From Saprospiraceae bacterium (lineage in GTDB: Bacteria; Bacteroidota; Bacteroidia; Chitinophagales; Saprospiraceae): DNA of 54,509 nucleotides. The notes below the pieces were generated by a model. The model did no database searches. It saw only the letters and a list, made by a program, of their open reading frames with translations, and had not been told where the DNA came from. Positions 1 through 54,509 of the stretch are shown here, in pieces. The stretch covers positions 1 to 54,509 of the forward strand of contig JAIYAP010000078.1 of NCBI GenBank assembly GCA_027488935.1, read 5' to 3'. A program made the translations under genes and the position numbers. Position 1 is the stretch's first letter, and each line of letters opens with the position of its first letter.

Positions 1-420
1 ACCTGGATGCTTGGGCTGGTAGCACCGTTGCTCCAAAGGAAGTTCTCTGCGCCCGTTGCGGTTAAGGTTGCGGTTTCGCCCGCGCAAATGCTTGCACTAT
101 TTACCGAAATTGCCGGAATGGGGTGTACCGTTACTTCGGTATTGACGAGGGTAGAAGTACAACCGTTGGTGGTGCCGCTTACGGTGTAGGTCGCGTTTGC
201 GTCGGGTATGACCTGGATGCTTGGGCTGGTAGCACCGTTGCTCCAAAGGAAGTTCTCTGCGCCCGTTGCGGTTAAGGTTGCGGTTTCGCCCGCGCAAATA
301 CTTGCACTATTTACCGAAATATTTGGAACCGGCGTAACCGTTACTTTTGCGGTTACCGGTGCAGCATCATATCCGGCGGTATTGCCAATGACGGTGTAGG
401 TGGTGGTGCTATCCGGACTA
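1..420 (-). repeat. 210-bp tandem repeat encoding 70-residue Ig-like domains
   Basis: The segment beginning at 1 recurs at 211, a period of 210 bp or 70 codons. Bases 1-109 and 211-319 differ at a single position (90 versus 300). The other half of the unit (110-210 versus 320-420) is clearly diverged. A third, older copy covers roughly 421-540. The array continues beyond the left edge, so copy number is unknown. Half-unit homogenisation suggests recombination or gene conversion between repeats. Confidence 0.85.
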
Positions 421-2759
421 ACTACAATACTATTGCCAGTTGCGCCATTGCTCCATTGGTAATACATTGCACCGCTGGCAGTCAGCGTTACCGTTTGACC
501 GGGGCAAATGCCGGCATCATTTACAGAAACCACCGGGGTAGGGGTTTCGACCGGGCAACCGCCTGGAAAATACAGGTCGATGATATTTTGCATGGCTTGT
601 TGCGCCAGGTTGCCGTGGCTGGCGTTATATTGCGGTAGCCAAATATTGTACCATCCCGAACCATAATCAGGGTCGCCGCCTGCAGGAACACTGCCGCCAA
701 AAAAGGTATTGGCGTGTATTACAAATTGGGCATTATTAAGTGGAATGATGGATTTATAATGGTTCAACCGCTCGCAAATGCGCTTGGAAGGCCCCAAATT
801 GGCCGCATCTAAATAGGTTTTAAGTTTTGCGGCGTTTTTGGGTTGAACACCCCAAAAATGAATCAAGGGCCGCATATCAATACCGGCCGCTTTTGAAAAC
901 CGATAAATTCGGCTATCCACCTCGCTCAAGCCGTCGGGAGGCGTTTGGGCGATGTAATCCAGTTGTTCTTTTTTGTAAAACGAATCGAGCACGCCCCAGC
1001 CAAACAGCGCCGCCATTTCCACATATTTTGCATAGCCACGTTGCTGGTAGCGTACCTCATCCTTGGTCGTATTAGAAATATCCATCGGGTTTCCTGCGCG
1101 GAAATTAGGGGTTACCATCCAGTTGAGCGCCGCCTGATCGCGGGTGACTTGTGGAATATTATTGAACGATTTACCCAGCGCAGTATCGATGTTTACCCCG
1201 TATTTACGGTTGTAAATGGCTGCGGCCAGCAAGTTGACTGCAGCTTCTCCTTCGCCTGGGAAACCGCTAAATAACTGTGCATGCCCTAATTCATGAAATT
1301 CCGTTTCCCAAAAATCGACCCCCGGTTGTAAAAACCAATGGTTTTTGTTGCCATTTTCTACGTTCAGTGGGTTATAGGTATTGTTGATCTGCGGGTTTCC
1401 GATGCCATAACCGCCAAACATGATATCCACATCAATTTGGAGGTATAAAATCGTATTGTTGCGAACGGCCGGGTATCCCAATAATTTGGAAACTACATCC
1501 ATGCGGTCGTCCCAGTCTTGCATCAAAGTGACCGGATCGGCGTAATTGTAAATCCAGCTGGTGGGAACCTGCATCATATATTTATCTGATTCAAAATCAG
1601 CCCAGGGTGCAGGGTTTTTGCGTTGCTCGGTCAGCCAGTTTTGCAGGGTCGTCTGGTCAAAACTTTTGGCCGAAAAGAAAGGTGCGGGCACAACGTTCGT
1701 CAGTTGAATTTCCGCAATGCCTTCATTCGCCTCATAAGGGGTGATGATGTAAATACCGCCGCCGAATGGATTGGCTATTTCGGTAAGCGTATCGGTAATC
1801 GGGAACGTATTGGTGACTCGGAAAAAGCGCCGCACCGGATTATTTCCAGTGCGCTCAAATGTGTGCGCGCCTACGAGGATTTTAAAGCCTTTGTTGACCA
1901 AATTGGTTGGAACATGCACTATTCCAATACTGCCAGGCGCAAGGTAGTACCCCGTTGGGCGTCGTGCAGGCGTAGAAGAAAAAGCCGTTCTTTTGCCGTA
2001 TTCCGTTGGCATAGAGGCATTTACCCTGGCGGTATAACTAGTTTGCGGATTGGTAGGAGCCGGACAAACACCCGGAAAGAAATTGGCCGTCTGAAATTTA
2101 CGACCGGTTAAAATGGTTTTGTACTTTTTAATTTTTTCGGGCGTATATATGTAGTCTTGAATGCCTTGTTGCACTTTAAACACCGCGCGAACCAGTTCAA
2201 ACCCGTCGTTTGCGCCTGGATTATTCGGAAAACCGCCTTTTGTGGGAGCACTTAAAAAAAAGGCACCTTGTTGGGTTTCATAAAATGAGACCAAATCGAA
2301 AGCGGTTAACACCACCGAACTGGAGTCGCCCATCACAAAAATATTATCTTGAATGGTATCCGCTACTAAATTAATGGCCGTGGGACTCAAGGTTGCCGTA
2401 CCATTGAGGTGTTTTTTTAGTTTTCGGATAGCTGCCTCCAGGATAGAGACCGATTCGGCATCATTGGCCAGTTTGTAGTAGCCCGATTTGTAGGTGCCAA
2501 AAATGGGATCCCCCCCAAATGTTTCATTGTCAAATGTGATGGTGCCGGTTTGGTTATAGAGGTATTTGAATTTATTGTCGGCCCCGTATGCTACATGGCT
2601 TTTGGCGGGTAACGTAAAGGTGCCGTTTTCGGGCGCGCAATAAATGTAACCAGCGGGGCCTTGGGAAAAACCAGTTGTGGTGTTTAAGCACAACAATACC
2701 ATCACCGAAAGCGCCCATGCATGACAGTTGCGCAGGGCAGGTAGTAAAAATTGAATCAT
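1..2759 (-). CDS. Secreted M60-type (enhancin-like) metallopeptidase with Ig-like repeats, 3' end outside window
   Basis: The reading frame is open from an ATG at 2759 to the left edge (919 codons, no stop), so the C-terminus is missing. Residues 1-33 are a signal peptide ending in GFSQ. The zinc-peptidase motif HELGH lies at residues 489-493, followed by a downstream glutamate in GEAAVN (E505). This HExxH...E arrangement with a following GE-xx-VN is what the M60/enhancin family shows, and family members cut mucin-like glycoproteins. From about residue 738 the protein carries Ig-like/PKD-like repeats of about 70 residues containing ICxGxTxTLTA and WSNGAT motifs, usual in Bacteroidota surface proteins. 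A T9SS sorting domain would be expected beyond the window but is not visible. The protease family is well supported; the substrate is not known. Confidence 0.85.
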   Translation of the reverse strand, partial: MIQFLLPALRNCHAWALSVMVLLCLNTTTGFSQGPAGYIYCAPENGTFTLPAKSHVAYGADNKFKYLYNQTGTITFDNETFGGDPIFGTYKSGYYKLANDAESVSILEAAIRKLKKHLNGTATLSPTAINLVADTIQDNIFVMGDSSSVVLTAFDLVSFYETQQGAFFLSAPTKGGFPNNPGANDGFELVRAVFKVQQGIQDYIYTPEKIKKYKTILTGRKFQTANFFPGVCPAPTNPQTSYTARVNASMPTEYGKRTAFSSTPARRPTGYYLAPGSIGIVHVPTNLVNKGFKILVGAHTFERTGNNPVRRFFRVTNTFPITDTLTEIANPFGGGIYIITPYEANEGIAEIQLTNVVPAPFFSAKSFDQTTLQNWLTEQRKNPAPWADFESDKYMMQVPTSWIYNYADPVTLMQDWDDRMDVVSKLLGYPAVRNNTILYLQIDVDIMFGGYGIGNPQINNTYNPLNVENGNKNHWFLQPGVDFWETEFHELGHAQLFSGFPGEGEAAVNLLAAAIYNRKYGVNIDTALGKSFNNIPQVTRDQAALNWMVTPNFRAGNPMDISNTTKDEVRYQQRGYAKYVEMAALFGWGVLDSFYKKEQLDYIAQTPPDGLSEVDSRIYRFSKAAGIDMRPLIHFWGVQPKNAAKLKTYLDAANLGPSKRICERLNHYKSIIPLNNAQFVIHANTFFGGSVPAGGDPDYGSGWYNIWLPQYNASHGNLAQQAMQNIIDLYFPGGCPVETPTPVVSVNDAGICPGQTVTLTASGAMYYQWSNGATGNSIVVSPDSTTTYTVIGNTAGYDAAPVTAKVTVTPVPNISVNSASICAGETATLTATGAENFLWSNGATSPSIQVIPDANATYTVSGTTNGCTSTLVNTEVTVHPIPAISVNSASICAGETATLTATGAENFLWSNGATSPSIQ

Positions 2760-11181: not shown

Positions 11182-12138
11182 TCAGGGCTTAATTTGCTTT
11201 TTCAATTCGTCCAGTTCCTTTTGAAGGGCAAGGTTTTTTTGAATTTCGGCTTCTGCTCTTTGTTTTTCGGCTTCCGCCCTTTGTTTTTCGGCTTCTGCTC
11301 TTTGTTGTTCGGCTTCTGCTCTTTGTCTCTCTGTTTCTGCCCTTTGTTGCTCTTCCATCAATTGGATGTCCTTTTCTGCGATAATTTCATCTTTTTTCTT
11401 CATAGCCCGTTCAAAAACCCGATCCACTTCATCCTCTACATCCATGATATTGCGGATTTCTTCATTGGCAATAGCACGCCCAAGTCGGTCTACCATCTTT
11501 TTTACCAAAGGATCGTCTGTTTCGCCTTGAAAGTCCAATTGGTGTACATCGGCAGTGGTTTGGTACAATGGACTAAAAATTTGCAACACGCGCTCCAACT
11601 TGGTGCGGGCTTGTTTAGGCAATTTTCGCACCTGAATCAAATAGGAATCATGCGTCAATAACTCCACAAAATCTTCTTTAATATCGAGCAGTTCCTGGGT
11701 AACCACATCCCGATATTCCCGGTTAATTTTCACGATTCCAGACTGAATACTATCCAACTGAAAGCCTAAAAAGTAAATAGTCAAAATGGGCAAGGGACGT
11801 TCTTCAATCTGGCCTTGCTCGTTCAGAATGGTATCTTCTTTTCGATAATTTTCGCCCAAATAACGCCGAAAACGCATCACATCGAAGGCTTTTTTGGCTT
11901 TTTGCAACTCAATGAGCACTTTGCGGGTTACTCCTGTTTTATTTTTGATAATTGCCTTAAAATCAAATCGCAATATACTGATGTTTCCGCCCGATCTTTC
12001 GGTGGCCGTCTCCTGTGGTTTTAACTCCAAACTTTGAATTTCTTCTCCCAGAATGGTCGACAGTAATTCTTTGGCTATGTCCAAATCCTCCAGCAGGTAT
12101 TTGAATACCACATCGTAAATAGGGTTGGCAATCAGCAT
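11182..12138 (-). CDS. Rpn / PD-(D/E)XK nuclease family (transposase-like) protein with heptad-repeat tail
   Basis: The 318-residue product begins MLIANPIYDVVFKYLLED, the start typical of the Rpn/PD-(D/E)XK 'transposase-like' family. Candidate active-site positions are D59 (RFDFKA) and E77-x-Q79 (LIELQKA). Family members are DNA endonucleases; some promote recombination and some are implicated in phage defence. Residues 266-300 are five consecutive 7-residue units of the RAEAExQ type, forming a charged coiled coil, followed by a further helix to the C-terminus (KKQIKP). No inverted repeats flank the gene, so there is no direct sign that it is currently mobile. Confidence 0.82.
   Translation of the reverse strand: MLIANPIYDVVFKYLLEDLDIAKELLSTILGEEIQSLELKPQETATERSGGNISILRFDFKAIIKNKTGVTRKVLIELQKAKKAFDVMRFRRYLGENYRKEDTILNEQGQIEERPLPILTIYFLGFQLDSIQSGIVKINREYRDVVTQELLDIKEDFVELLTHDSYLIQVRKLPKQARTKLERVLQIFSPLYQTTADVHQLDFQGETDDPLVKKMVDRLGRAIANEEIRNIMDVEDEVDRVFERAMKKKDEIIAEKDIQLMEEQQRAETERQRAEAEQQRAEAEKQRAEAEKQRAEAEIQKNLALQKELDELKKQIKP
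11239..11343 (-). repeat. 21-bp tandem repeat (5 units) inside the Rpn-like gene
   Basis: Five in-frame 21-bp units encode RAETERQ, RAEAEQQ, RAEAEKQ, RAEAEKQ and RAEAEIQ. The units differ mainly at the sixth codon and at silent positions (cct/tct, tcc/tct). A 21-bp direct repeat can gain or lose units by slippage without breaking the frame, so coiled-coil length may vary between strains. Confidence 0.9.
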
Positions 12139-20448: not shown

Positions 20449-22773
20449 CTAAAACGGCAACCCAAACGAAAAATTCCAATTCAAATTCTCTTTCCGCCAC
20501 AACCCGCTGCCAAAACGCAACTGGTCACCTACCCAGCGCTCACCAGTCGGGAGGAAGGGTTTGGACAAGGGAAACGCCACATCCAGCCGCAAAACAAAAA
20601 AGCCAAGGTTGATCCTTAGTCCCATGCCGGAGCCGACCGCCAGGGCGCGGTAAAAACTGTTCACGTGAAATTGGGAGGCTTTTGTGGCATCCGGGCCTGC
20701 CGTTAGCCAGATATTCCCGGCATCTAAAAAAAACGCCAATTCGGGGTAGCGGCCTAAAGCAACCCGATATTCTATACTGCTCTCTATCAACAAATTACCG
20801 GTATAATTGCTTACCGAAAGGGTGTTGCGGCTCGTGTCGCGCGGCTGCGTACCCGGCCCGATGGTGCGCGGGGCAAACGCGCGTACGCTGGAGGCGCCAC
20901 CCACAATATAGCGGTCGAGCAAAGCGATGGTGCCGCCCGTGCGCAGGGGAATGCCAGCCCCAATGGCTAAGCGCATCGCTAATACGTGGTGCGCGGTGGT
21001 TTTTTGATACTGCCGGTAATCGGTTTCAATAAAGAAGTTGCGCGGACTGGCCAATTTGTAATCAGCGGGCAGGTACGGATTTCTTCTATAACCGCTGATT
21101 TGGCCTGCCACGCGCAGGCGTACAAAACGGGTTAATTGCCGATTTGGTCCTAAACGCTCATCCAAGGTGAACGTATAATTGGGTTTGTATTCCAAAAAAC
21201 TTAAGAGCGATGCCGTGGTGCCGGTGGTATCGGAAGGGATGTTTTCGAATACTTTTTGGCGCACCAGGGCTTTGTTGAAGGTCGAAAATTGCAATCCCAG
21301 GTTGATTGGATTGAATTCCTGGGTAATAGAGCCACTGCGCTGGTTTTTCCATGAATAACCGGCCTCGCCCGAAACCCGCTGTAAGCTCATCCGAAATGCC
21401 CCCAATTCCGGCAAATCGTATTTGAACCAGTTGGTTTCATGCCGCATGCCAAACGTGGTTTTGCTGAAAGAACGGCGGTCTTTGGGCTTGAAAAATACAA
21501 ACCGCGGCAAACTCATGCGCACAGAAGCATCGCTGACGATGAAATCCTGAAAATCGTAATTGTCATTGTTGGTGCGTAAATACGCGGCGTTCACCGCAAC
21601 GCGCAGCGCTACTGCTCCCCCAAACAGGTTGCGGTGGTTGTACGCTAGGCCTGTGCGGGCGCCGTAATAAAAACCGGCAGAAAAGATCCCTGAAACGGTG
21701 CTTTCTATCCGTTGCGGACGAAAGTTTGTCAGGTAAATGCGCGCATCAAGCAAGGTATCTTCCTTAGGTGACACCTCAAAACGAATGTTAATAAATTTAT
21801 ATATATTTAGGTTTAGCAGGCGATAAACGGTCGATTGATACGCTTCATTGGAATACAGGCTGCCACACCGGAGTTTTATCTGCTGGTTGAGCACGGACGG
21901 TTTGGTGTGCATATGATCATATATATAGGTGGGGCATTGTTGGGGGAGGGTATCTTTTGAATTTTGGGTTGCATCTTGTTCTTGGGCTAAATCGTAATTG
22001 GGGTAAACTACGATGGTATTGAGTGCGTACTGCTGGCGTTCCTGCGCACTGGTTTCCTGCTTCAAGCGCAAATGCAGGTTTAAGCTGCCGATCGGATGCA
22101 GGGTGTCTGCTTCAAAAATCAGGTTGTCAGGAGTAAAAAAGTACCGCCCGTGGTTGCGCAAGGTGTCGGAAATGCGCTGACGTTCGGCGATCAGGTTTTC
22201 GAGTTGGTAGTATGCGCCGGGTTTTAGCAGGGAGGTCGATTGTAACGCCGCAATGGCAGCAGTAATGCGGCTGGAATCGGCTGGATAATCGATGTAGTCT
22301 ACTTTTTTGCGGTCGGCCAGCACGGTAACCTGGTATCCGATGCTGGCTTTATGTTTTTTAAGGACGGCATTTGACTCCACTTTTACGCTGAAATACCCGT
22401 CGTTTCCGGCCCTTTCTTCCAATAGTTCCTGTTGTCGTTTAACAATATTGGGTTCGTAAAAAACGGGTTTTTCCCCTAATTTATAGGCAATAAAGGTTCC
22501 AAAACTCTTTTCCCTGCTGTTTTTAAAGAGTTCGTACAGCACCAATTTGGGTCGCATCCATAATATCTTTTTGTTGGGACGCGGAAGGATTACGGCTTTT
22601 TTCAAGTCTGACTTCAGGAGCTTGGTCGACCAATTTTTATCGGTTTTTTCGATTTTTATGTGTGCGCCAGTGTATAGGCGTTCTCCATCTGCCAGGCGAC
22701 CCGTACCGGTGCAGCCTGCTCCGATAACCAGCCAGGTACATGCAAACGCATAAGAGATCAACGGTGTTTTCAT
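20449..22773 (-). CDS. BamA/TamA family outer-membrane protein (lipoprotein form)
   Basis: This 774-residue Omp85-superfamily protein begins with a lipoprotein signal, IGAGC with C21 as lipidation site. Next come POTRA-like repeats (about residues 35-310, e.g. NDGYFSVKVESNAVL and YQLENLIAERQRISDTLRNHGRYFF). The C-terminal 16-strand barrel region includes GGASSVRAFAPRTIGPG (the conserved VRG(Y/F)-like segment) and a terminal strand NWNFSFGLPF ending in an aromatic residue. It starts 3 bp after the TamB stop, so both are co-translated. TamA-type barrels with TamB help insert proteins or move lipids to the outer membrane. Confidence 0.9.
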   Translation of the reverse strand: MKTPLISYAFACTWLVIGAGCTGTGRLADGERLYTGAHIKIEKTDKNWSTKLLKSDLKKAVILPRPNKKILWMRPKLVLYELFKNSREKSFGTFIAYKLGEKPVFYEPNIVKRQQELLEERAGNDGYFSVKVESNAVLKKHKASIGYQVTVLADRKKVDYIDYPADSSRITAAIAALQSTSLLKPGAYYQLENLIAERQRISDTLRNHGRYFFTPDNLIFEADTLHPIGSLNLHLRLKQETSAQERQQYALNTIVVYPNYDLAQEQDATQNSKDTLPQQCPTYIYDHMHTKPSVLNQQIKLRCGSLYSNEAYQSTVYRLLNLNIYKFINIRFEVSPKEDTLLDARIYLTNFRPQRIESTVSGIFSAGFYYGARTGLAYNHRNLFGGAVALRVAVNAAYLRTNNDNYDFQDFIVSDASVRMSLPRFVFFKPKDRRSFSKTTFGMRHETNWFKYDLPELGAFRMSLQRVSGEAGYSWKNQRSGSITQEFNPINLGLQFSTFNKALVRQKVFENIPSDTTGTTASLLSFLEYKPNYTFTLDERLGPNRQLTRFVRLRVAGQISGYRRNPYLPADYKLASPRNFFIETDYRQYQKTTAHHVLAMRLAIGAGIPLRTGGTIALLDRYIVGGASSVRAFAPRTIGPGTQPRDTSRNTLSVSNYTGNLLIESSIEYRVALGRYPELAFFLDAGNIWLTAGPDATKASQFHVNSFYRALAVGSGMGLRINLGFFVLRLDVAFPLSKPFLPTGERWVGDQLRFGSGLWRKENLNWNFSFGLPF

Positions 22774-45340: not shown

Positions 45341-46690
45341 ATGTTTGAGAGTTTAAGCGACCGGCTTGATTCCGCGTTTAAGGTACTGCGCGGCAACAAC
45401 AAGATTACCGAACTGAATGTTGCTGAGAGTATTAAGGAGATTCGTCGCGCCCTGGTGGGTGCCGACGTAAACTATAAAATTGCCAAGGAATTCACGGATA
45501 AAGTGAAAGACAAGGCGTTGGGTTCGGAAAACGTGCTCAAAAACGTAAATCCGGGTCAGTTGATGGTCAAAATCGTCATGGACGAATTGGCCGAACTGAT
45601 GGGTGGACAAAGTGTGGGCATCAATACCAAAGGCAGTCCGGCGGTGGTATTGGTGGCGGGTTTGCAAGGTAGTGGTAAAACGACGTTTTGCGGCAAACTG
45701 GCGCGTATGCTGAAGGAGCAACGCAAACTTTCGCCTTTGTTGGTGGCTTGCGATGTTTACCGTCCGGCGGCGATCGACCAGTTGACGGTATTGGGCGATA
45801 GCATCAAAGTGCCGATTTATAAAGAAATAGAGAATAAAAATCCGGTGGAAATTGCGCAAAACGCGATCAAACATGCCAAAGCGCACGGATTTAATGTGGT
45901 CATTGTGGATACTGCCGGTCGTCTCGCTGTAGATGAAGCGATGATGGCCGAAGTAGAAGCGGTGAAAAAGGCAATCAATCCGACAGAAACGCTGTTTGTC
46001 GTGGATTCCATGACGGGTCAGGATGCGGTGAACACCGCAGAAGCGTTCAACCAGCGCATCAATTTCGACGGTGTCGTATTAACCAAATTGGATGGCGATA
46101 CCCGCGGTGGTGCGGCCCTGACGATCAAATACACGGTAGGGAAACCGATCAAGTTCGTGTCGATGGGTGAAAAACTCGACACCTTGGATGTGTTTTATCC
46201 CGATCGGATGGCGCAACGGATCCTCGGTATGGGTGACATCGTGTCGTTGGTGGAAAAAGCCCAGATGGAATTTGATGAGGAAGAGGCGAAACGGGTGGAG
46301 AAGCGGATCAAACAAAACAAGTTTGATTTTAATGACTTTTTGGGTCAAATGCAGCAAATTAAAAAGATGGGCGATTTAAAAAGCCTCATCAGTATGATAC
46401 CGGGCGTGGGCAAAGCCCTCAAGGATGCTCCCATTGATGATAAAGCCCTGGGTCGTGTGGAAGCCATCATCCACAGCATGACGCCAGATGAACGTGGTAA
46501 CCCGGATTTATTGAATTTGAGTCGCAAAAAACGCATCGCACGCGGGTGTGGTCAGACCTTGGAACAAATCAACCTGTTTATCAAGAATTTCCATGATATG
46601 CGGAAGATGATGCATCAAATGGCAAATTCTCCGATGGGTAAAATGGGATTGCCGGGCATGGGAGCACCTAAGGGCGGATTCCGTAGATAA
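45341..46690 (+). CDS. ffh: Signal recognition particle protein Ffh
   Basis: The 449-residue GTPase has the N domain (1-90), G domain and methionine-rich M domain in the standard order. G motifs are GLQGSGKTT (107-115), DTAGR (from D190) and TKLDGD (from T248). The M domain includes RKKRIARGCG, the RNA-binding helix region, and Met-rich FHDMRKMMHQM. Ffh binds the signal sequence and 4.5S RNA in the cytosol and delivers ribosomes to FtsY. Length is normal for the family. It converges with the flavoprotein gene over a repeat-rich gap of 180 bp. Confidence 0.97.
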   Translation: MFESLSDRLDSAFKVLRGNNKITELNVAESIKEIRRALVGADVNYKIAKEFTDKVKDKALGSENVLKNVNPGQLMVKIVMDELAELMGGQSVGINTKGSPAVVLVAGLQGSGKTTFCGKLARMLKEQRKLSPLLVACDVYRPAAIDQLTVLGDSIKVPIYKEIENKNPVEIAQNAIKHAKAHGFNVVIVDTAGRLAVDEAMMAEVEAVKKAINPTETLFVVDSMTGQDAVNTAEAFNQRINFDGVVLTKLDGDTRGGAALTIKYTVGKPIKFVSMGEKLDTLDVFYPDRMAQRILGMGDIVSLVEKAQMEFDEEEAKRVEKRIKQNKFDFNDFLGQMQQIKKMGDLKSLISMIPGVGKALKDAPIDDKALGRVEAIIHSMTPDERGNPDLLNLSRKKRIARGCGQTLEQINLFIKNFHDMRKMMHQMANSPMGKMGLPGMGAPKGGFRR

Positions 46691-46892
46691 AAAGGGTTCC
46701 ACAGAGGAGCTCGGAGGTACGGAGTTACACAGAGTTTTTATTTGTTCTGTGTCCTGCCCCGTTCCTCCGAACTTCTCATGAAACCCTTTTTCTCCGCGAA
46801 ACTCCATACCTCCGAGCTACTCCGCGGAACCCCTTTTTTTAAAATCTCTGTGTAACTCCGTACCTCCAAGCTATTCCGCGGAACCCTTTTTA
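46688..46892. repeat. Intergenic inverted-repeat element between ffh and the flavoprotein gene
   Basis: A 47-bp unit occurs at 46688-46734 and, inverted, at 46846-46892 with five mismatches. The inner 22 bp (46713-46734 and 46846-46867) are perfectly complementary. Two diverged copies in the second orientation lie between them, near 46747-46791 and 46792-46841; each unit ends in GAACCCTTTTT or a close variant. As RNA the region would fold into a long hairpin and could end transcription from both convergent genes. The right arm overlaps the last 22 bases of the flavoprotein gene; the left arm begins at the ffh stop codon. Confidence 0.8.
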
Positions 46893-48070
46893 AGCACTCC
46901 TACCCCAACGTAACTCCCCATCGCGAAACACCCCTGCAATAAAAAACCACCCGTAGGCGCATCCCAATCAAGCATTTCCCCGATCGCGTACACGCGTGGG
47001 TACTTGCGCAGGGAAAAATCAGCATTCAGTTCCTGCAAATCAATACCTCCCACCGTTGAAATCGCCTCTTGCACAGGCCGCAACGCATGCACATACAAAG
47101 GAACCTGTTTTAAGGCACGGGCAAATTTTAAAGGATCCAGAAAAGTAAATTTATCCAGCGCGTTTTTGACCAGCGCTAATTCCATGGTGTCCAGATTAAA
47201 GCGCTGTGCATAATCCTTTGAGGTACAAGGCTTTGTTCGTGCTTTTTCCAATAAACTTTCAAGCGTGTTATTCGGCTTTAAATCGAGCAAGAGCAGTGGT
47301 TCAGCTGCTTGGGCCAAAGCCTGCCGCACCGCAGGCACCAGCGGATAAATTGCATTGCCTTCCAATCCGTAGCGCGTCACCAACGCTTCCCCGCGCCGCA
47401 CTTCATTTCCTATTTGTAACTGAATGTTTTTCAGTGGTTTACCAGCGTGGTATTGAACAAAAGCATCAGGCCATTCAATATTGACCCCACAATTGGAGGC
47501 CTCGAATGGCAGCACCTTGATTTCTTTTCTGGCAAACATCTCAACCCAGTTACCATCCGAACCAGTCACCGGCCAGGAGCCGCCGCCGAGGGCAAAAATG
47601 CAATAATCGAAGGTAATGAAAGCTGATTTCCCCTGGTGTTCGATCACCAATTTATTTTGGTCGAAATCGGTACACAAGTGCTGGGTATGAAAAACGACAC
47701 CTTTGGATAAGAGTTTGTTTTTCAAGGCTTTCAATACTTCATAAGGCTTGGTAGGCGGGGTAGGAAACACCCGTCCGCTAGAGCCAATGTAGGTTGGAAT
47801 ACCGAGTTGGGCAAGCCAATCGCGGGTCGCTTCGGTATCAAAGGCTTGCAAGCATGCATTCATAAAACCGGTTGGGCGGTATTGTTGCAGCAACTCAGGT
47901 CCAGTTAGGCTATTGCTTAAGTTAAAACCGCCTTTTCCAGCTACTAAGAATTTGCGCCCGATGGTTTTGGCTTTTTCGTAAATAGCCACCTGGCAATGGG
48001 GCGTGAGTACATCTGCCGCCATCAGGGCTGCGGGGCCTCCACCTACGATGATGATCTTTTTACGTTCCAT
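46871..48070 (-). CDS. HI0933-family (BaiN/YhiN-like) NAD(P)/FAD-dependent flavoprotein
   Basis: The 399-residue protein starts with an FAD-binding Rossmann motif IIIVGGGPAALMAA (6-19) and the acidic end of strand two (YEKAK), followed by the family hallmark GRKFLVAGKGGFNLSN. Near the C-terminus there is GGIDLQELNADFSL and the FAD-contact segment YAIGEMLDWDAPTGGFLLQ. It fits the TIGR03862/HI0933 flavoproteins, whose physiological role is largely unknown, with some members acting as reductases. The final residues LKKGSAE and stop are encoded by the inverted-repeat arm at 46871-46892. The 28-bp palindrome array lies 48 bp upstream of the start. Confidence 0.92.
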   Translation of the reverse strand: MERKKIIIVGGGPAALMAADVLTPHCQVAIYEKAKTIGRKFLVAGKGGFNLSNSLTGPELLQQYRPTGFMNACLQAFDTEATRDWLAQLGIPTYIGSSGRVFPTPPTKPYEVLKALKNKLLSKGVVFHTQHLCTDFDQNKLVIEHQGKSAFITFDYCIFALGGGSWPVTGSDGNWVEMFARKEIKVLPFEASNCGVNIEWPDAFVQYHAGKPLKNIQLQIGNEVRRGEALVTRYGLEGNAIYPLVPAVRQALAQAAEPLLLLDLKPNNTLESLLEKARTKPCTSKDYAQRFNLDTMELALVKNALDKFTFLDPLKFARALKQVPLYVHALRPVQEAISTVGGIDLQELNADFSLRKYPRVYAIGEMLDWDAPTGGFLLQGCFAMGSYVGVGVLKKGSAE

Positions 48071-48117: not shown

Positions 48118-48342
48118 GAGGTGACACCTCGGGGAGGTGACACCTCAGATGGTTGATGTCGGAGGTGACACCTCTGGTGGTTGACGTTGGAGGTGACACC
48201 TCGGATGGTTGATGTCGGAGGTGTCACCTCGGGTGGTTGATGTCGATGGTGACACCTCGGGCGGTTGATGTTTGAGGTGACACCTCGGATGGTTGATGTC
48301 GGAGGTGTCACCTCGGGCGGTTGATGTTTGAGGTGTCACCTC
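48118..48342. repeat. Palindrome array A: nine 13-bp palindromes, 28-bp period
   Basis: Palindromes GAGGTGWCACCTC start at 48118, 48134, 48162, 48190, 48218, 48246, 48274, 48302 and 48330. From the second on, the period is exactly 28 bp, with a conserved 15-bp linker of the form GGRYGGTTGATGTYG. The first interval is 16 bp (linker GGG). The centre base is A in six copies and T in three; the copy at 48246 has a changed first two bases. Linkers are conserved, so this is not a CRISPR. The 28-bp period is not a multiple of three, and the open frames across it look like artefacts. It fills the 281-bp gap between ilvC and the flavoprotein gene. Confidence 0.93.
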
Positions 48343-48351
48343 CCCTACACC

Positions 48352-49422
48352 CTACACCTCCACATCCACCGGCGCCGGCTGGTTTTCCGGCCGCAAGCTG
48401 CGCACCGTTTTACCTGCTTGCCACATTTCGCTGTCGCGGAGTTCTTTCAGTTCTACTTCTAATTTTTCGCGGTAATCCGGTTGACTGTTAGAAGCAATAG
48501 AGCGGGCAGATTCATGCCCAGCAGCTACACTCTCATATAATTCGTTGAATACCGGCAAGGTAGCATCCCGGAATTTTTTCCACCAGTCCAAAGCGCCGCG
48601 CTGGGCCGTAGTGGAGCAGTTGGCGTACATCCAGTCCATGCCATTTTCAGCAACCAAAGGCATTAAGGATTGCGTGAGTTCTTCCACCGTTTCATTAAAA
48701 GCCTCGGAAGGTGTGTGGCCTTTTGAACGTAAAACTTCATATTGTGCGGCAAAAATGCCCTGAATGGCGCCCATCAAGGTGCCGCGCTCGCCGGTCAGGT
48801 CAGAATATACCTCTTTTTTGAAGTTGGTTTCGAACAAGTAGCCGCTGCCAATTGCGATGCCCAGGGCAATCACACGCTCGTACGCGCGACCCGTGGCATC
48901 CTGAAAAATGGCGTAACTGCTGTTCAAACCGCGTCCTTGTAAAAACATGCGGCGCAAGGAGGTACCTGAACCTTTAGGTGCCACCAAAAAAACATCCACA
49001 TCCGCGGGCGGGACAATTTCCGTTTGATGGTTGAAGGTGATGCCAAAACCGTGCGAAAAATACAAGGCTTTGCCCGGGGTAAGATGCTTTTTTACGGTTG
49101 GCCACATTTGAATTTGGGCAGCATCACTCAAAAGATAGCAGATGATGGTACCACGCTCCAAGGCTTCTTCAATTTCAAACAGCGTTTCACCCGGAACAAA
49201 TCCGTCGGCAATGGCTTTGTCCCAGGAACGGGAGTTAGAACGTTGACCTACAATAACATGTACGCCATTGTCGCGTTGGTTTAAAGCTTGTCCCGGACCT
49301 TGTACGCCATAACCAATCACGGCTACGACTTCGTTTTTCAGCACGGCTTGTGCTTTTTCCAAGGGAAATTCTTCGCGGGTAACAACTGGTTCTACCGTGC
49401 CACCAAAGTTGAGTTGTGCCAT
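48352..49422 (-). CDS. ilvC: Ketol-acid reductoisomerase
   Basis: The 356-residue class I enzyme converts acetolactate or acetohydroxybutyrate to the dihydroxy acid using NADPH and Mg2+ (valine/isoleucine pathway, second step). The nucleotide loop is GYGVQGPGQALN and the phosphate-binding segment GQRSNSRSW. The C-terminal knotted domain has the metal-binding DLTGERGTLMGAIQG. It is the last gene of the ilv operon, 46 bp after ilvN, and its stop lies 9 bp from the last palindrome of array A, which could therefore also mark the operon end. Confidence 0.96.
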   Translation of the reverse strand: MAQLNFGGTVEPVVTREEFPLEKAQAVLKNEVVAVIGYGVQGPGQALNQRDNGVHVIVGQRSNSRSWDKAIADGFVPGETLFEIEEALERGTIICYLLSDAAQIQMWPTVKKHLTPGKALYFSHGFGITFNHQTEIVPPADVDVFLVAPKGSGTSLRRMFLQGRGLNSSYAIFQDATGRAYERVIALGIAIGSGYLFETNFKKEVYSDLTGERGTLMGAIQGIFAAQYEVLRSKGHTPSEAFNETVEELTQSLMPLVAENGMDWMYANCSTTAQRGALDWWKKFRDATLPVFNELYESVAAGHESARSIASNSQPDYREKLEVELKELRDSEMWQAGKTVRSLRPENQPAPVDVEV

Positions 49423-49468
49423 ATTTTACACTTTAATTGAGTTGAAAGTTGAAAATGGATATTCCGTT

Positions 49469-50056
49469 TTACATGGAAAAAACGGCTTCTTGTTGATCCA
49501 AAAAGGCATTTGTGGAAACGCTTTCGCCAGGCTCCGCAGCCTCAAATTCGCGCAAACGTTCGTGAAAATCGTGGCTGCCTTTAATAATAGCAACCCGCGC
49601 ACTTCGTACAAATTCAATTAACCCGAAAGGCTCCAGCACTTCCAACAGTTTGTCGGTTTCTTCTCGGTGACCACTCACCTCAAAAACTGTGTAGTCGTTG
49701 CGAATGAGCACCGCGCGTGCCCCGTATGTCCGTAAAAGCCGCTCTACAACCACTTTTTCGGCAATAATATCGGTGGGGACTTTATACAGGGCCAGTTCTT
49801 GCCACACAATTTCATCGTTGGTGTTGAAATAAGCCTTCAGTACTTCTACCTGTTTTTCAATTTGCCGCACCAGTTTGCGCAACAGTTCTTCTGTTTCATG
49901 GACCACAATGGTGAACCGAAAAATATCTTCTACTTCGGAAGGAGAGCTGTTCATGCTCTCGATATTGATTTTTCGGCGGGTAAAAATCATGGCGATGCGG
50001 GCAAGCAATCCCACCTGATTTTCAGTATAAATGGTAATCGTATATTCCTGTTTCAT
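49469..50056 (-). CDS. ilvN: Acetolactate synthase small (regulatory) subunit
   Basis: The 195-residue protein has an N-terminal ACT domain (about 3-78; YTITIYTENQVGLLARIAMIF with NIESMNSSPSE) and a C-terminal regulatory domain (about 85-165). The subunit activates the catalytic subunit and confers feedback inhibition by valine. It starts 6 bp after the ilvB stop. The C-terminus beyond about residue 165 is an extension rich in acidic residues. Confidence 0.93.
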   Translation of the reverse strand: MKQEYTITIYTENQVGLLARIAMIFTRRKINIESMNSSPSEVEDIFRFTIVVHETEELLRKLVRQIEKQVEVLKAYFNTNDEIVWQELALYKVPTDIIAEKVVVERLLRTYGARAVLIRNDYTVFEVSGHREETDKLLEVLEPFGLIEFVRSARVAIIKGSHDFHERLREFEAAEPGESVSTNAFLDQQEAVFSM

Positions 50057-50062
50057 GGCCTG

Positions 50063-51838
50063 TTATTTTAGTCGGATTTCGGCCACCCCGCAACCCTGGG
50101 GCACCATGGGAAATACGTTGTTTTCTTTGCCCACCATGATGTTGAGCAAATATGCTCCATTGTGCTTGAGCATGGCATCCAGCGCTGGTTTTAGGTCTTG
50201 GCGCTCCGTAATGGTTTGTCCCTCAATGCTATATCCTTTCGCAATCGCTACAAAATCGGGGTTTTGCATATCCACAAAGGAGTAGCGCCGTTCGTGAAAT
50301 AATTCTTGCCACTGGCGCACCATTCCCAGGTAATTGTTATTGAGTATCAATATTTTAACATTTACCTTTTCTTGCATAATCACCGCAAGTTCCTGGATGG
50401 TCATTTGGAAACCACCGTCGCCGATTACCGCCACAACGGTGCGATCCGGGGCGCCATATTTTGCCCCAATTGCAGCCGGAAGGGCAAATCCCATCGTTCC
50501 CAAGCCGCCCGAAGTAATATTGCTGTTGGGTTGGTTAAATTGGGCGTATCGAATTGCCACCATTTGATGTTGACCTACATCTGTTACAATGATGGCCTCG
50601 CCCTGAGTAAGTTCATTGAGGTTGCGAATCACTTCACCCATGCTCAAAACCGGACCTTCCGGATGCAATTCAGGTTGAATTACTGTAGCAATTTCCTCCT
50701 GCATACAATCGTGAAATCGTTCAATCCAAGCCGAATGATCCCGTTTTTCAATCATTTGGGTCAATAAAGGCAAGGTTTCTTTGCAATCGCCCCAAACGCC
50801 TACCGTGGCTTTTACATTTTTGTCAATTTCAGACGGATCAATGTCTAAATGCACAATTTTGGCTTGTTTGGCGTACTTATCCAAACGGCCGGTCACCCGG
50901 TCATCGAAGCGCATCCCAATGGCAATCAACACATCGCACTGATTGGTGAGTACATTGGGTCCATAATTGCCGTGCATGCCCAGCATCCCCACATTTTGCG
51001 GATGGTCGGTGGGTAAAGCACTCACTCCAAGGATGGTCCAAGCCGCCGGAATGCCACTTTTTTCGACAAAATCTTTAAATTCCGATTCGGCGCGGCCTAA
51101 TAACACACCTTGTCCCCAAATAATAAACGGGCGCTCCGCCGCATTGATCAATTCGGCGGCTTGTTCAATAAATTCAGGCCGAACGATCGGTTTGGGCCGA
51201 TAACTGCGCAAACGGCGGCAAGGCTCGTAAGGTGTAAAATCGGTCAACTGCAATTGGGCATTTTTGGTCACGTCTATCAGTACCGGACCAGGCCGACCGG
51301 TTCGCGCGATATAAAATGCCTTGGCCATGGCCGCTTGTAGTTCACGAGCATCGGTTACTTGGCAATTCCATTTGGTAACCGGCGTAGTAATGTTCATCAC
51401 GTCAATTTCCTGAAATGCGTCGGTACCCAATAAGTGCGCAAATACCTGGCCGGTTATACACACCATCGGCGTGCTGTCGATCATGGCATCGGCCAATCCG
51501 GTCACCAAATTGGTGGCCCCGGGTCCGCTGGTCGCAAACACCACACCTACCTGTCCGGATGCGCGCGCGAAGCCTTGGGCAGCGTGGGTGGCCCCTTGTT
51601 CGTGGCGTACTAAAATGTGTTGTAATTGATCTTGATAGTCGTATAAATGATCATAAATTGGCATAATTGCACCGCCAGGATAACCAAAAATGGTTTTTAC
51701 CCCTTCTGCAATCAGGCATTTCATGATGATTTCGGCCCCGGTAAGTTGTTGAATATCAGGCGTTGCCGGACTAGGATGCGCGGAGTTATCAACGATCTGT
51801 GACACATCCCTCGCTGGCTGAGGAGACTTGTTTTGCAT
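50063..51838 (-). CDS. ilvB: Acetolactate synthase large (catalytic) subunit
   Basis: The ATG at 51838 (MQNKSPQ) gives 591 residues; the frame reaches a GTG at 51853. This start lies inside ilvD, a 50-bp overlap. The first 35 or so residues are a non-conserved extension before [15 protein letters not shown]. The ThDP enzyme motifs are present: [13 protein letters not shown], the activating Glu in [13 protein letters not shown], and [12 protein letters not shown]...NNNYLGM for cofactor binding. It condenses two pyruvates, or pyruvate and 2-oxobutyrate, as the first step of branched-chain amino-acid synthesis. The partner ilvN follows by 6 bp. Confidence 0.96.
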
Positions 51839-53456
51839 ATTTGTACAGGACACCGTTTTTAATTTTGAAATCTGGTTGTACCCAATTCCGGCGACGCCGG
51901 TTTATTTCGTCCTCGTTCAGGTGTGCATGGATCGAATTTTGCGAGGCATCAATCGTGATGCGGTCGCCATTTTCAATCAATGCGATCAATCCGCCATCAA
52001 AAGCCTCTGGTGTTACGTGCCCCACCACAAATCCGTGGGTGCCGCCCGAAAAACGACCATCGGTGATCAAGGCTACACTGGTTCCCAGTCCCGCGCCCAT
52101 AATGGCGGAGGTGGGTTTTAGCATTTCAGGCATGCCCGGGGCGCCTTTTGGACCTTCATACCGAATCACAACAACATGACCGGGTTTGACCAATCCATCG
52201 CGGACACCCTGAATACATTCAAATTCATTATCAAATACAATGGCCGGGCCATCAAATAATTCGCCTTCTTTTCCGGTGATTTTGGCGACCGAACCTTCTG
52301 TGGCAAGGTTGCCATATAAAATGCGCAAATGGCCGTGGGCTTGCAAAGGTTGGGTCGTGGGTGCGATTATGGTTTGTTCTGCTGGTAACCCAGAAAGTGC
52401 TAAAAGATTCTCTTTCAAGGACTTACCTGTAACCGTCAAACAATCGCCATGCAATAATCCTTCTTCCAACATATACCGCATCACGGCCGGAATGCCACCG
52501 ATTTGGTGAATATCTTCCATGTGGTATTTCCCGGAAGGTTTCATGTCGGCCAAAACGGGCGTACTCCTGGATATTTTTTGGATATCTGCCATAGAGAACG
52601 GAATATCTGCGGTGCGTGCAAGGGCAATTAAGTGCAAAACGGCATTGGTAGAACCACCCAATACGGTAATAACCCGCAACGCATTTTCAAAAGACTCCCG
52701 GCTTAAAATATCCAAGGGTTTCAGATCCAGTTCCAGCAAAAGCCGTATTGCCGCACCTGCTGCCGCACATTCTGCCTGTTTTTCAGGTCCAACCGCCGGA
52801 TTACTGGCACTATAAGGCAAAGACAAACCCAGTGCTTCAATGGCCGACGACATGGTATTGGCGGTGTACATGCCCCCGCATGCGCCCGGGCCTGGGCAAG
52901 CATGCCGGATAACGGCTTTAAAATCTTCCGGGGTAATGGTCCCTGCATATTGAGCGCCAAGGGCTTCGAAAGCGCTGACAATGTTTAATTTCTGTCCGTT
53001 GTATTCTCCAGTAGCAATCGTTCCCCCATACACCATAATAGCAGGGCGGTTGAGTCGGATCATGGCGATCAAAGCGCCGGGCATATTTTTATCGCAACCA
53101 GGGATGGCAATCAGTCCATCGTAATAATGGGCGCCCATGACTGCTTCGATGCTATCGGCAATAATTTCGCGTGAAACCAGGGAATAGCGCATGCCTTCCG
53201 TTCCATTCGCGATACCGTCCGAAACGCCAATCGTATTAAATTGTAAACCAACGAGTCCCGCTTGTTTTACCGAGTCTTTTACGGCCCCTGCCAACTGGTT
53301 GAGGTGCATGTTGCAGGTATTTCCTTCATACCAGTTGCTGACAATGCCCACAAACGGTTTGTCCATGTCCTCCGGCTGAAGTCCGGTGCCATACAACATG
53401 GCTAAACTAGCCGGCTGGGTATCATCTTGGGTTACGCGGTGACTATAATTTTTCAT
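51789..53456 (-). CDS. ilvD: Dihydroxy-acid dehydratase
   Basis: The 555-residue enzyme dehydrates the dihydroxy acids from IlvC to 2-oxo acids (third step). Cysteines for the iron-sulfur cluster are C48 (NTCNMH), C121 (PGCDKNMPG) and C193 ([12 protein letters not shown]), all conserved. Length and the C-terminal segment [14 protein letters not shown] are typical. It begins 3 bp after ilvE and its 3' end overlaps the ilvB start by 50 bp, consistent with a tightly coupled operon. Confidence 0.97.
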
Positions 53457-53459
53457 GTT

Positions 53460-54347
53460 TTACAAATAGGAATTCGTGACTACTTCATTGAGTACTTCTG
53501 CTTTGTACAGCATTTGCAGGGAATGCCCGAGGGTATTTTCCCATTTTTTCCGGAAAGGAATACGGTCCAAGCTCGCAATTCCGGTTACCTCTGCGGCGGT
53601 TCCGACAAAAAAGGCCCCGTCGGCATGGTGTACATCTTCGGTTCGGAAGCGCTTTTCTTCTACGCGCATACCAATGCGTTTGCATATTTGAAGCACGGTA
53701 CTGCGCGTGATGCCCGGTAAAATATTTCCTGTGGGTGGGGTATAAAGCACGTCATCTTTTTCGTAAAAGAAATTAGCGCCCGGACCTTCAGCTACATATC
53801 CGTCCACATCCAATAACAGCGCTTCATCAAAATTTTTCGCTTTGGCTTCGGTCGTTGCCAAAATAGAATTGGTATAATGCCCTACCACTTTGGCTTCCAC
53901 GAAACAAGATTTCGGATGTGGCCGACAAAAAGAAGAGGTCATGACATCCACCGTTTTGTCGCCCAAGAGTTTCCCCCATTTCCAGGCGCACATAAACAAA
54001 TGCGCTTTGTCGGGTGGCGTGAGCGACATATTCGGACTGGTATAAACCAAGGGACGGATATATGCGTCTTCCAATTCGTTTTTTTCAAGGAGCAAATAGG
54101 CCAGTTCGGTCATTTCCTCCAGGGTATAAGTAAGTGGAATATGCATTTTGCGCGCAGAATACAGCAAGCGCTCGAAATGCTCTTCTGCCTTAAAAATGCG
54201 CACTCCTGAAGTCGTCAAATAAGCCCGAATTCCTTCAAAAACGCCGTTTCCGTAATGAAGCGTTTGCGAATACGGGCTAATTTGTGCTGTTTCGGCCTTG
54301 ATCCATTGGCCGTCGAGGAATAGGATAGAATGTTCGTTGTAGTACAT
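53460..54347 (-). CDS. ilvE: Branched-chain amino-acid aminotransferase
   Basis: The 295-residue class IV PLP enzyme catalyses the final transamination to Val, Leu and Ile. The Schiff-base lysine is K153 (FVEAKVVGHYTNSILA); other family features are YGNGVFEGIRAY near residue 32, EGPGANFFY and the PLP-phosphate segment GNILPGITR. It is the first gene of the operon and starts 40 bp from palindrome array B, so the ilv promoter must lie within or beyond that array. No leader peptide rich in Val/Leu/Ile is visible in the 40-bp gap. Confidence 0.95.
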   Translation of the reverse strand: MYYNEHSILFLDGQWIKAETAQISPYSQTLHYGNGVFEGIRAYLTTSGVRIFKAEEHFERLLYSARKMHIPLTYTLEEMTELAYLLLEKNELEDAYIRPLVYTSPNMSLTPPDKAHLFMCAWKWGKLLGDKTVDVMTSSFCRPHPKSCFVEAKVVGHYTNSILATTEAKAKNFDEALLLDVDGYVAEGPGANFFYEKDDVLYTPPTGNILPGITRSTVLQICKRIGMRVEEKRFRTEDVHHADGAFFVGTAAEVTGIASLDRIPFRKKWENTLGHSLQMLYKAEVLNEVVTNSYL

Positions 54348-54386
54348 ATTTTTGCTTTTGGGTTGTATATCAATGGATTATGTTCC

Positions 54387-54509
54387 GTAGTGACACCTCG
54401 AGAGGTGTCATCTCCCAAGGTGTCATCTCGAGAGGTGTCATCTCCCCGAGGTGTCATCTCCCCGAGGTGTCATCTCCCCGAGGTGTCATCTCCCCGAGGT
54501 GTCATCTCC
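54387..54509. repeat. Palindrome array B: at least eight units, 15-16-bp period, upstream of ilvE
   Basis: Units of the form GAGGTGTCATCTC start at 54387 (variant GTAGTGACACCTC), 54402, 54417, 54432, 54448, 54464, 54480 and 54496. Spacing is 15 bp for the first three intervals and exactly 16 bp for the remaining four (linker CCC). Seven units carry CATCTC, one mismatch from a perfect palindrome. The junction of the first two units is itself a perfect 9-bp inverted repeat, TGACACCTC-GA-GAGGTGTCA (54391-54410). The array continues beyond the right edge. On the minus strand the unit reads GAGATGACACCTCGGG, matching the 16-bp unit at the start of array A on the plus strand. Confidence 0.92.

Follow-up and report, generated by a model that had tools for sequence, protein, structure and literature searches.

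Arrays A and B, the two runs of a short palindrome beside the ilv genes, are very likely two addresses of a REP/BIME-like family of dispersed intergenic palindromes in this Bacteroidota genus. They are unlikely to serve the branched-chain genes as a dedicated switch. The palindrome is dispersed through the genome and placed between genes, it shares addresses with a congener at which copy number or unit type has changed, and the examined flanks of RAYT genes are free of it (with one exception, see below).

The two arrays in the window

The window is an entire contig of 54,509 bp. Array A (48118..48342, no strand assigned) contains nine copies of the 13-bp palindrome GAGGTGWCACCTC, eight exact and one with two mismatches, at spacings of 16 bp and then seven times 28 bp. 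It occupies the gap that separates ilvC, whose stop codon is 9 nt away, from an HI0933-like flavoprotein gene, whose start codon is 47 nt away. The ilvC gene (48352..49422, minus strand; KARI_N, KARI_C) encodes ketol-acid reductoisomerase, and the flavoprotein gene (46871..48070, minus strand; HI0933_like) is downstream of the array. Array B (54387..54509, no strand assigned) has eight visible copies, mostly GAGGTGTCATCTC with CCC linkers, at spacings of 15/16 bp. It is located 39 nt upstream of the start codon of ilvE (53460..54347, minus strand; Aminotran_4), a class IV aminotransferase gene, and reaches the end of the contig. As the window is one whole contig, array B is cut by the assembly. 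Contig C68 most likely begins with its far side, ending 5 nt from the leuB stop codon. The position of array B corresponds to the leuB|ilvE gap, as leuB, the array and ilvE are assembled together in the congener G023 (L105).

The count of 17 copies in the first-pass annotation was reproduced on recounting, and the distances above agree with its placing of the arrays 40–48 bp upstream of minus-strand start codons. The arrays had also been described as bracketing an ilvEDBNC operon. Array A is beside ilvC and array B beside ilvE, but with array B between leuB and ilvE, and array A 9 nt after ilvC, the operon extends past array B. A single 16-bp unit with a GGG linker, running in opposite directions in the two arrays, had been proposed as well. 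Array B has 15/16-bp steps, and array A has mostly a 28-bp period. Only the first step of array A is the 16-bp/GGG unit, so the claim of opposite directions rests on a single unit there. The core itself is palindromic.

Exact plus-strand matches to GAGGTGWCAYCTC are found in 14 of the 17 cores, with one mismatch in one more and two mismatches in the remaining two. At a tolerance of two mismatches, 36 strand matches were found in the window, compared to a mean of 1.29 (largest 8) in shuffled sequence. The lone further match to the core in the window has one mismatch and is within an ORF, at 21765. That no comparable array exists elsewhere in the window is therefore correct for the core, although another iterated inverted repeat is present at 46688-46892.

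The core is a 13-bp palindrome with a one-base centre and the inner sequence AGGTGWCACCT. In 170 cores of the genome that carries the window (G000), conservation is at least 98% at the inner positions, except positions 4, 7 and 10. The centre differs between A and T in 17 of 140 adjacent pairs of units, compared to 1 of 428 linker positions (Fisher P 3e-10); the corresponding values in G023 are 12/79 and 17/687 (Fisher P 8e-6). Such swaps of the centre between adjacent units are unusual. They are a lead and not a proof, as position 1 is more variable than the centre (25/140) and A/T differences are also seen in the linkers of G023.

Distribution in the genome and in its relatives

The genome contains 203 sites for the core at up to one mismatch, compared to one site for a reversed control. 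Of 162 copies examined, 157 are intergenic, while intergenic bases amount to 17.5% by gene calls that come from a custom ORF and codon script and not from a standard caller; the copies are clustered and hence not independent of each other. There are at least 34 intergenic clusters. Four or more units are present in 18 of 38 clusters, and head-to-tail arrays reach 17 units, with periods of 15/16 or 27/28 bp. The context is half visible for 16 of the 38, which touch the edge of the examined stretch or contig. Arrays reach at least 14 of 176 contig ends and account for assembly breaks.

The neighbours are diverse, and include genes for CTP synthase, topoisomerase, a TonB receptor, malate:quinone oxidoreductase, an ABC-F protein, an RCC1-repeat protein and many others. 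By count, branched-chain or leucine genes are neighbours at three addresses, ilvC (array A), leuB/ilvE (array B) and leucyl-tRNA synthetase (L039).

The 18 clusters that could be classed by gap type are in co-directional (10), convergent (7) and divergent (1) gaps. Convergent gaps are enriched (7/18 clusters against 25/180 gaps, Fisher P 0.013), and the depletion of divergent gaps is not significant (1/18 against 42/180, P 0.13). Among the 34 non-gene clusters, 26 have a facing stop codon, and 12 of these are no more than 20 nt from it, whereas none of the 18 that face a start codon is that close to it (P 0.0005, the two sets of clusters overlapping). Against uniform placement within the gap, however, proximity to the stop codon is not significant for clusters with both neighbours, either in G000 (9/24 ends, 6.33 expected, P 0.06) or in G023 (6/14 ends, 4.47 expected, P 0.16). 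A preference for stop codons beyond gap filling is not supported.

A detailed comparison was made with G023, which belongs to the same genus. Its leuB|ilvE gap has closely matching flanks, and the units in it are 27/28 bp, compared to 15/16 bp in G000. The unit type (16 against 27-28 bp) differs between the two genomes at three further addresses as well (L038/L024, L041/L025 and L056/L101). At another common address (L050/L097) the copy number differs, one unit against at least five in the order G000, G023, and five sites with pairs or single copies have unchanged spacing. The common addresses were drawn from core-bearing loci only, which biases the sharing upward. No ilvC match was found in G023, leaving array A with no counterpart for comparison there.

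Among the genomes examined, only G000 and G023 have the core at leuB|ilvE. It is absent from this gap in 7/7 other congeners examined, and from the 3′ flank of ilvC in 8/8. The leuB|ilvE gap is short in four congeners (4, 21, 27 and 57 nt) and contains other repeats in three. With unrelated intergenic sites throughout the genome, and congeners that lack the core at the ilv and leu genes, the dispersed repeat family that the first-pass annotation gave as its alternative is supported and its operator reading is not.

In six congeners (G006, G013, G024, G033, G021 and G007), core-like arms are paired as inverted repeats or hairpins with a short loop, the paired copies spanning 35-39 bp. In G006, an element of about 160 bp, bounded by terminal inverted repeats, contains the core pair, and the distance between the searched ends is 159 bp in 6/6 copies measured. 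No terminal inverted repeats, leader or tail were recognised by eye around the printed arrays of G000.

At least one exact core was found in 22 of 60 relatives, but the reversed control matched 6 of 60, so that counts of one or two mean little. A two-core pattern searched in 395 Bacteroidota genomes, a sample with no other members of the genus, matched only the genome under study. A scan of contigs with a pattern with a 3-base linker gave no match, and a second scan gave four stretches, all in one MAG (taken as G023).

Relation to known repeats and alternative explanations

REPs, as described in PMC3733652, are intergenic, in co-directional or convergent gaps and close to 3′ ends. The core resembles the REPs and BIMEs covered there (GTAG and CGTC super-families) as a short, high-copy, mainly intergenic palindrome near 3′ ends, present as pairs, clusters and tandem reiterations with flanking DNA, with several families in one genome. 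The 203 sites here exceed the 100 genome copies expected of a REP, and the placement of REPs in co-directional or convergent gaps is seen in 17 of the 18 classed clusters. Palindrome clusters of variable copy number with a spacer, as in BIMEs, are represented by the 18 clusters with four or more units and by the address with one against at least five units. The 13-bp core, however, is shorter than the 20–40 bp REP stem-loop. It also differs from the REPs and BIMEs in that paper as a perfect, odd-length palindrome with a near-zero loop and no GTAG tag, in its head-to-tail arrays, the longest of which have 17 units, and in that the core does not adjoin the RAYTs examined. CGTC REPs reportedly lack an association with a transposase (same paper), and the core is like them in this respect. 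Against the CGTC/TGTC tag and AT-starting stem of 8-9 bp of CGTC REPs, the congener pairs, which read TGTC-ATCTCC..., are a possible match, and the G000 cores, with CACCTC, do not read this way.

Other systems show partial likeness. The six congeners carry inverted core-like arms with a short loop, as REPINs do (PMC3116915), but the copies in G000 and G023 are mostly direct tandem repeats, and no RAYT is associated with them. The BrickBuilt minisatellite, which Porphyromonas gingivalis carries within a MITE (PMC4596501), is also from Bacteroidota and intergenic, with short tandem units at many loci, and the G006 element with its terminal inverted repeats may be comparable to it. The G000 unit, however, is unrelated in sequence and period to the 23-nt BrickBuilt unit, and no such terminal structures were recognised around the G000 arrays. 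The TAACTGA direct repeats (PMC4679880; Beggiatoaceae, Cyanobacteria and Bacteroidetes) are likewise an iterated short intergenic motif whose neighbours have no functional theme, but those heptamers lie just upstream of start codons, whereas none of the 18 clusters here that face a start codon is within 20 nt of it. The string GAGGTGTCACCTC was not found in published full texts in PMC, a search whose scope excludes preprints and most subscription papers, and five further strings matched only four papers, human cancer or blood studies judging by title.

An RNA-level role, in which the core acts chiefly as a hairpin for termination, 3′ end protection or ribosome stalling and the arrays are selected for this, is unlikely, though it fares best among the alternatives. 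The transcript of array A folds far better than shuffled sequences (z -10.1), and the scores are z -4.1 for array B and z -6.5 for a G006 pair, but any palindrome folds and these scores are not independent evidence. A pair between convergent genes that resembles a bidirectional terminator, with A-run and T-run flanks, is kept in G023 (L043 14384 / L102 311). The 12 of 26 clusters close to a facing stop codon are consistent with such a role, and REPs of E. coli that are no more than 15 nt from a stop codon are reported to lower translation (PMC12306157). On the other hand, a T-run is missing from most arrays, and an Rfam search of the window gave no family match at the gathering threshold. Imperfect cores show no strand preference for G-U over A-C mismatches (7 against 6 arrays, one tie, P 1.0); with this orientation bias absent, RNA-level selection through G-U pairing was rejected.

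Mobilisation of the core by the tyrosine transposases of the genome, as a non-autonomous REP or REPIN moved by RAYTs, is improbable. Y1_Tnp genes are present (four in G000 and six in G023), the inverted pairs of the congeners resemble REPINs, and core pairs on contig C15 interleave with a RAYT-adjacent palindrome (L039 19527-19841). However, 25 of 26 RAYT-type loci in G000, G023, G006, G007, G013, G021 and five other genomes have no core in the flanks examined, and in the sole exception (L065 in G016) one exact core lies within the ORF, at chance level. No core was found near the four RAYT-type genes of G000. The gene on contig C81 has GACTTC-CGAAGTC palindromes with a GTAG end instead, as does its counterpart in G023 (8 and 6 matches), and the other three carry neither these palindromes nor the core. 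No constant GTAG is seen beside the cores in the printed clusters of G000 and G023, while in G006 GTAG is found four bases before the stem in most aligned elements. With the GTAG tag missing and RAYT flanks free of the core, assignment as a GTAG REP with a cognate RAYT was rejected.

Least probable by far is the operator reading of the first-pass annotation, a multi-site operator or structuring element through which branched-chain synthesis would be coordinated with the flavoprotein gene. In its favour, a biosynthetic operon is flanked by two arrays, and the core, nearly perfect as a palindrome and centred on A/T, looks like a dimeric binding site. Its inner positions are mostly conserved, and a leucyl-tRNA synthetase gene adjoins an array. 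However, the whole-genome search found the refuting pattern of many unrelated intergenic sites (about 200 copies), the congeners examined lack the core at leuB|ilvE and ilvC, and the unit spacing of array B is entirely different in G023. As the main reading it was rejected on the genome-wide dispersal and the core-free congeners.

Proposed growth of the arrays

As a dispersed family, the core is found for the most part in co-directional or convergent gaps, frequently no more than 20 nt from a stop codon, and single and paired copies appear to be stable between species. Some addresses may grow head-to-tail into 15/16-bp or 27/28-bp arrays by slippage or unequal exchange, and such arrays would be tolerated in the gaps between genes. 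Because linkers are similar at unrelated loci, some copying between loci probably occurs. Transcripts of the arrays would form strong hairpins, and any mild effects on transcript ends (read-through from ilvC to the flavoprotein gene and from leuB to ilvE) would likely be side effects and not the reason for the arrays. No tag or transposase was found that could mobilise the core.

The conservation of addresses together with swapped unit types is unusual. A more speculative idea, which we consider an outside chance, is a transposase-free palindrome system that keeps its addresses but rewrites its units by hairpin-mediated template switching in replication, with the stable singles and pairs as seeds and the arrays as transient outgrowths. 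Template switching of this kind would explain the frequent A/T swaps of the centre between adjacent units.

The view of two arrays in one contig is misleading, and the tempting operator story gives way to a genome-wide repeat family. Bacteroidota would thereby gain a REP/BIME-like family with no transposase in sight. Two sister genomes with identical intergenic addresses and differing unit types make a usable system for the amplification of short palindromes.

The core repeat family

Both arrays of the 13-bp palindromic core reported in the first-pass annotation are present. Array A (48118-48342), next to ilvC, contains nine cores, of which eight are exact and the other has two mismatches; the first spacing is 16 bp and the remaining seven are 28 bp. 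Array B, next to ilvE, has eight cores at a spacing of 15 or 16 bp and runs from 54387 to the final base of the window. The window is the entire contig C4 of a genome (G000) of 88 contigs and 6.28 Mb, which means that the assembly truncates array B. A scan of the window for the core, allowing two mismatches, gives 36 strand hits, against a mean of 1.29 in dinucleotide-preserving shuffles. In the same window a 21-bp unit is present five times in tandem (11244-11348) and a 210-bp repeat twice (1-455). An inverted repeat at 46688-46892, with 53-nt arms that are 89% complementary and CGGAGG/CACAGAG-like words, occupies the whole interval from ffh to the flavoprotein gene, which are convergent.

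The core repeats are a genome-wide family. The pattern GAGGTGWCACCTC has 50 exact sites in G000 and 203 with at most one mismatch, while the reversed pattern, as a control, has 0 and 1. The loci analysed in G000 (loci are given L numbers), which are the neighbourhoods of exact core sites and of CATCTC variants, cover 162 of the 203 copies, and 157 of these are in gene gaps. This supports the dispersed repeat that the annotation had offered as one of its two readings. An exception to the rest of the family is found in L040, where two exact cores, 30 bp apart (1375-1417), are within a called gene (140-2179, minus strand). The copies group into 38 clusters, 30 with at least two cores and 18 with at least four. 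Spacings of 16 (102 times), 28 (18 times) and 15 bp (15 times) are found, and 19, 24, 30, 32 and 36 bp once each. At least 14 contig ends have an array within 15 bases, and the measured array lengths are therefore underestimates.

Gene context of the arrays

The leuB gene is directly upstream of ilvE in all seven same-genus genomes yielding both genes, and array B most probably fills this gap. Contig C68 of G000 starts with the array-B unit and reaches leuB after 5 nt. In the sister genome G023 the junction is assembled: leuB is followed after 5 nt by eight cores spaced 27/28 bp apart, and these by ilvE. Over some 500 bases its two flanks show 89.8% and 93.2% matches to G000, and the bases adjoining the array on the leuB side are identical. 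Contigs C73 and C75 also terminate in the array-B unit, so we infer the C4-C68 junction from G023, as it is not assembled in G000.

The other reading in the annotation, an operator or structuring element for branched-chain synthesis and the flavoprotein gene, is not supported. Leucine or branched-chain genes adjoin the core at three addresses, array A (ilvC), array B (leuB and ilvE) and L039 (leucyl-tRNA synthetase). The genome has about 200 copies, however, with functionally diverse neighbours. A Pfam scan of 34 array neighbours, a subset of the total, finds CTP synthase, leucyl-tRNA synthetase, topoisomerase, a TonB receptor, malate:quinone oxidoreductase, hydroxyacyl-CoA dehydrogenase, an ABC-F protein, RCC1 repeats and dockerin proteins, among others. 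Moreover, the core is absent from the leuB-ilvE gap in seven of seven congeners and downstream of ilvC in eight of eight, so the ilv and leu genes exist without it.

The leuB-ilvE gap is 4 nt in G022, 21 in G015, 57 in G011 and 27 in G003. In G013 it has a different tandem palindrome (two full copies and one truncated), in G006 a long iterated inverted repeat (score 30.5, compared to 9 for the best of 20 shuffles), and in G005 a weaker one (15.5, compared to 11.5 in shuffles). The ilvC 3′ flank has long inverted repeats in six of the eight congeners (G015, G006, G011, G005, G022 and G013; L079, L080, L082, L083, L085 and L086), scoring 24.0 to 49.5 compared to at most 11 in shuffles; their iterated words are mutually unrelated, at the same gene end. 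None is found in G009 or in G003, where the flank is only 220 nt.

By our own gene calls, 34 core clusters are outside genes. A facing stop codon is at most 20 nt away in 12 of the 26 clusters having one, and a facing start codon in 0 of 18 (P 0.0005). Arrays are not significantly nearer to stop codons than uniform placement within the same gap would put them, in G000 (9 of 24 ends, 6.33 expected, P 0.06) or G023 (6 of 14, 4.47 expected, P 0.16). Where both neighbours are seen (18 clusters), 10 gaps are co-directional, 7 convergent and 1 divergent, and the 180 background gaps of at least 60 nt divide into 113, 25 and 42. Convergent gaps are over-represented (P 0.013); the deficit of divergent gaps is not significant (P 0.13).

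In a survey of gaps of 60-900 nt (L038-L064 and the window), a long inverted repeat (score at least 16) is present in 9 of the 21 gaps that are convergent, in 10 of the 106 that are co-directional and in none of the 41 that are divergent. With five mononucleotide shuffles for each gap, even the best one never has such a repeat. GTTAGTT and GAACACCGAATATCGAA are examples of the iterated words that make up several of the repeats.

Arrays A and B fold better as RNA than their shuffles (z -10.1 and -4.1), as palindromes must. Selection on the RNA is expected to orient imperfect cores toward G-U over A-C in the transcript, and no such preference is observed (informative arrays 7 versus 6, one tie). 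One conserved pair (L043 14384 and L102 311), between convergent genes, resembles a bidirectional terminator.

Relation to known repeats

The core family is new, and the kind of element is already known. A search of a PMC full-text collection did not find the repeat strings in its bacterial papers. According to Di Nocera and colleagues (PMC3733652), REPs are intergenic and mostly downstream of genes, are at most 20 bp from 3′ ends where the gap is convergent, and take in flanking DNA on tandem reiteration, and CGTC REPs have no dedicated transposase. The core family behaves like REPs in general. Unlike the GTAG REPs, it has neither the GTAG tag nor a link to REP-associated tyrosine transposases (RAYTs). 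As for the CGTC REPs, the paired copies in congeners read TGTC-ATCTCC, and the G000 cores with CACCTC do not. The nearest other comparisons are REPINs (PMC3116915), BrickBuilt (PMC4596501) and TAACTGA repeats (PMC4679880).

RAYT-type (Y1_Tnp) genes number four in G000 and six in G023. The core is missing at 25 of the 26 RAYT-type loci examined, the sole exception being one exact core within a RAYT ORF of G016. The RAYT on contig C81 and its G023 counterpart have a GTAG-ended repeat, several GACTTC-CGAAGTC palindromes (8 and 6 hits, respectively) followed by ATGCATTTGTAG; the palindrome has no hit at the other three RAYT loci of G000 and five of G023. This repeat clusters upstream of a RAYT (L063 1317-1796 for C81, L091 for the G023 counterpart) and also elsewhere (L039 1613-1930 and 19527-19841), and is interleaved with core pairs on contig C15.

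Six congeners (G006, G013, G024, G033, G021 and G007) have an inverted pair of core-like arms with a short loop. In G006 the pair lies within a roughly 160-bp element that has GGGCAATGTCGTTGACTTA as its terminal inverted repeats (L137-L148, L077). Six of the 17 aligned copies were measured, and in each the searched ends are 159 bp apart. A plausible candidate history is an inverted-pair ancestor whose copies later expanded in tandem in the lineage of G000 and G023.

Arrays at shared addresses

Addresses shared by G000 and G023 were identified by flank matches; the G023 loci were fetched for carrying the core, which biases the sharing rate. At four multi-copy addresses (leuB-ilvE, L038/L024, L041/L025 and L056/L101), the unit is 16 bp in G000 and mainly 27-28 bp in G023. 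The unit is 16 versus 15 bp at L047+L049/L022 and 28 bp in both genomes at L048/L100+L103; for three of the six multi-copy comparisons, just one flank was matched or the arrays are truncated. At L050/L097, G000 has one core and G023 at least five; at L040/L025, an array in G000 corresponds to a pair in G023. The spacing is unchanged at five pair or single sites (L043/L102, two in L050/L023, L058/L099 and L062/L104). The arrays are rewritten while their addresses stay fixed. Linkers of array A reappear at unrelated G023 loci, for example an identical 15-base linker in L101, which suggests copying between loci.

Among 170 G000 cores, from clusters of at least two, the base at positions 2, 3, 5, 6, 8, 9, 11 and 12 is the same in at least 98%, and positions 1, 4, 10 and 13 vary, mainly by transitions. 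In 169 of the cores the central base is A or T. It is swapped between A and T in 17 of 140 adjacent unit pairs, versus 1 of 428 linker positions (P 3e-10). In G023 the counts are 12 of 79 versus 17 of 687 (P 8e-6), the linkers there also showing A/T differences. These swaps are compatible with hairpin-mediated template switching or with a dimer site for which the central base does not matter. The conserved addresses with exchanged unit types, together with the centre swaps, are worth following.
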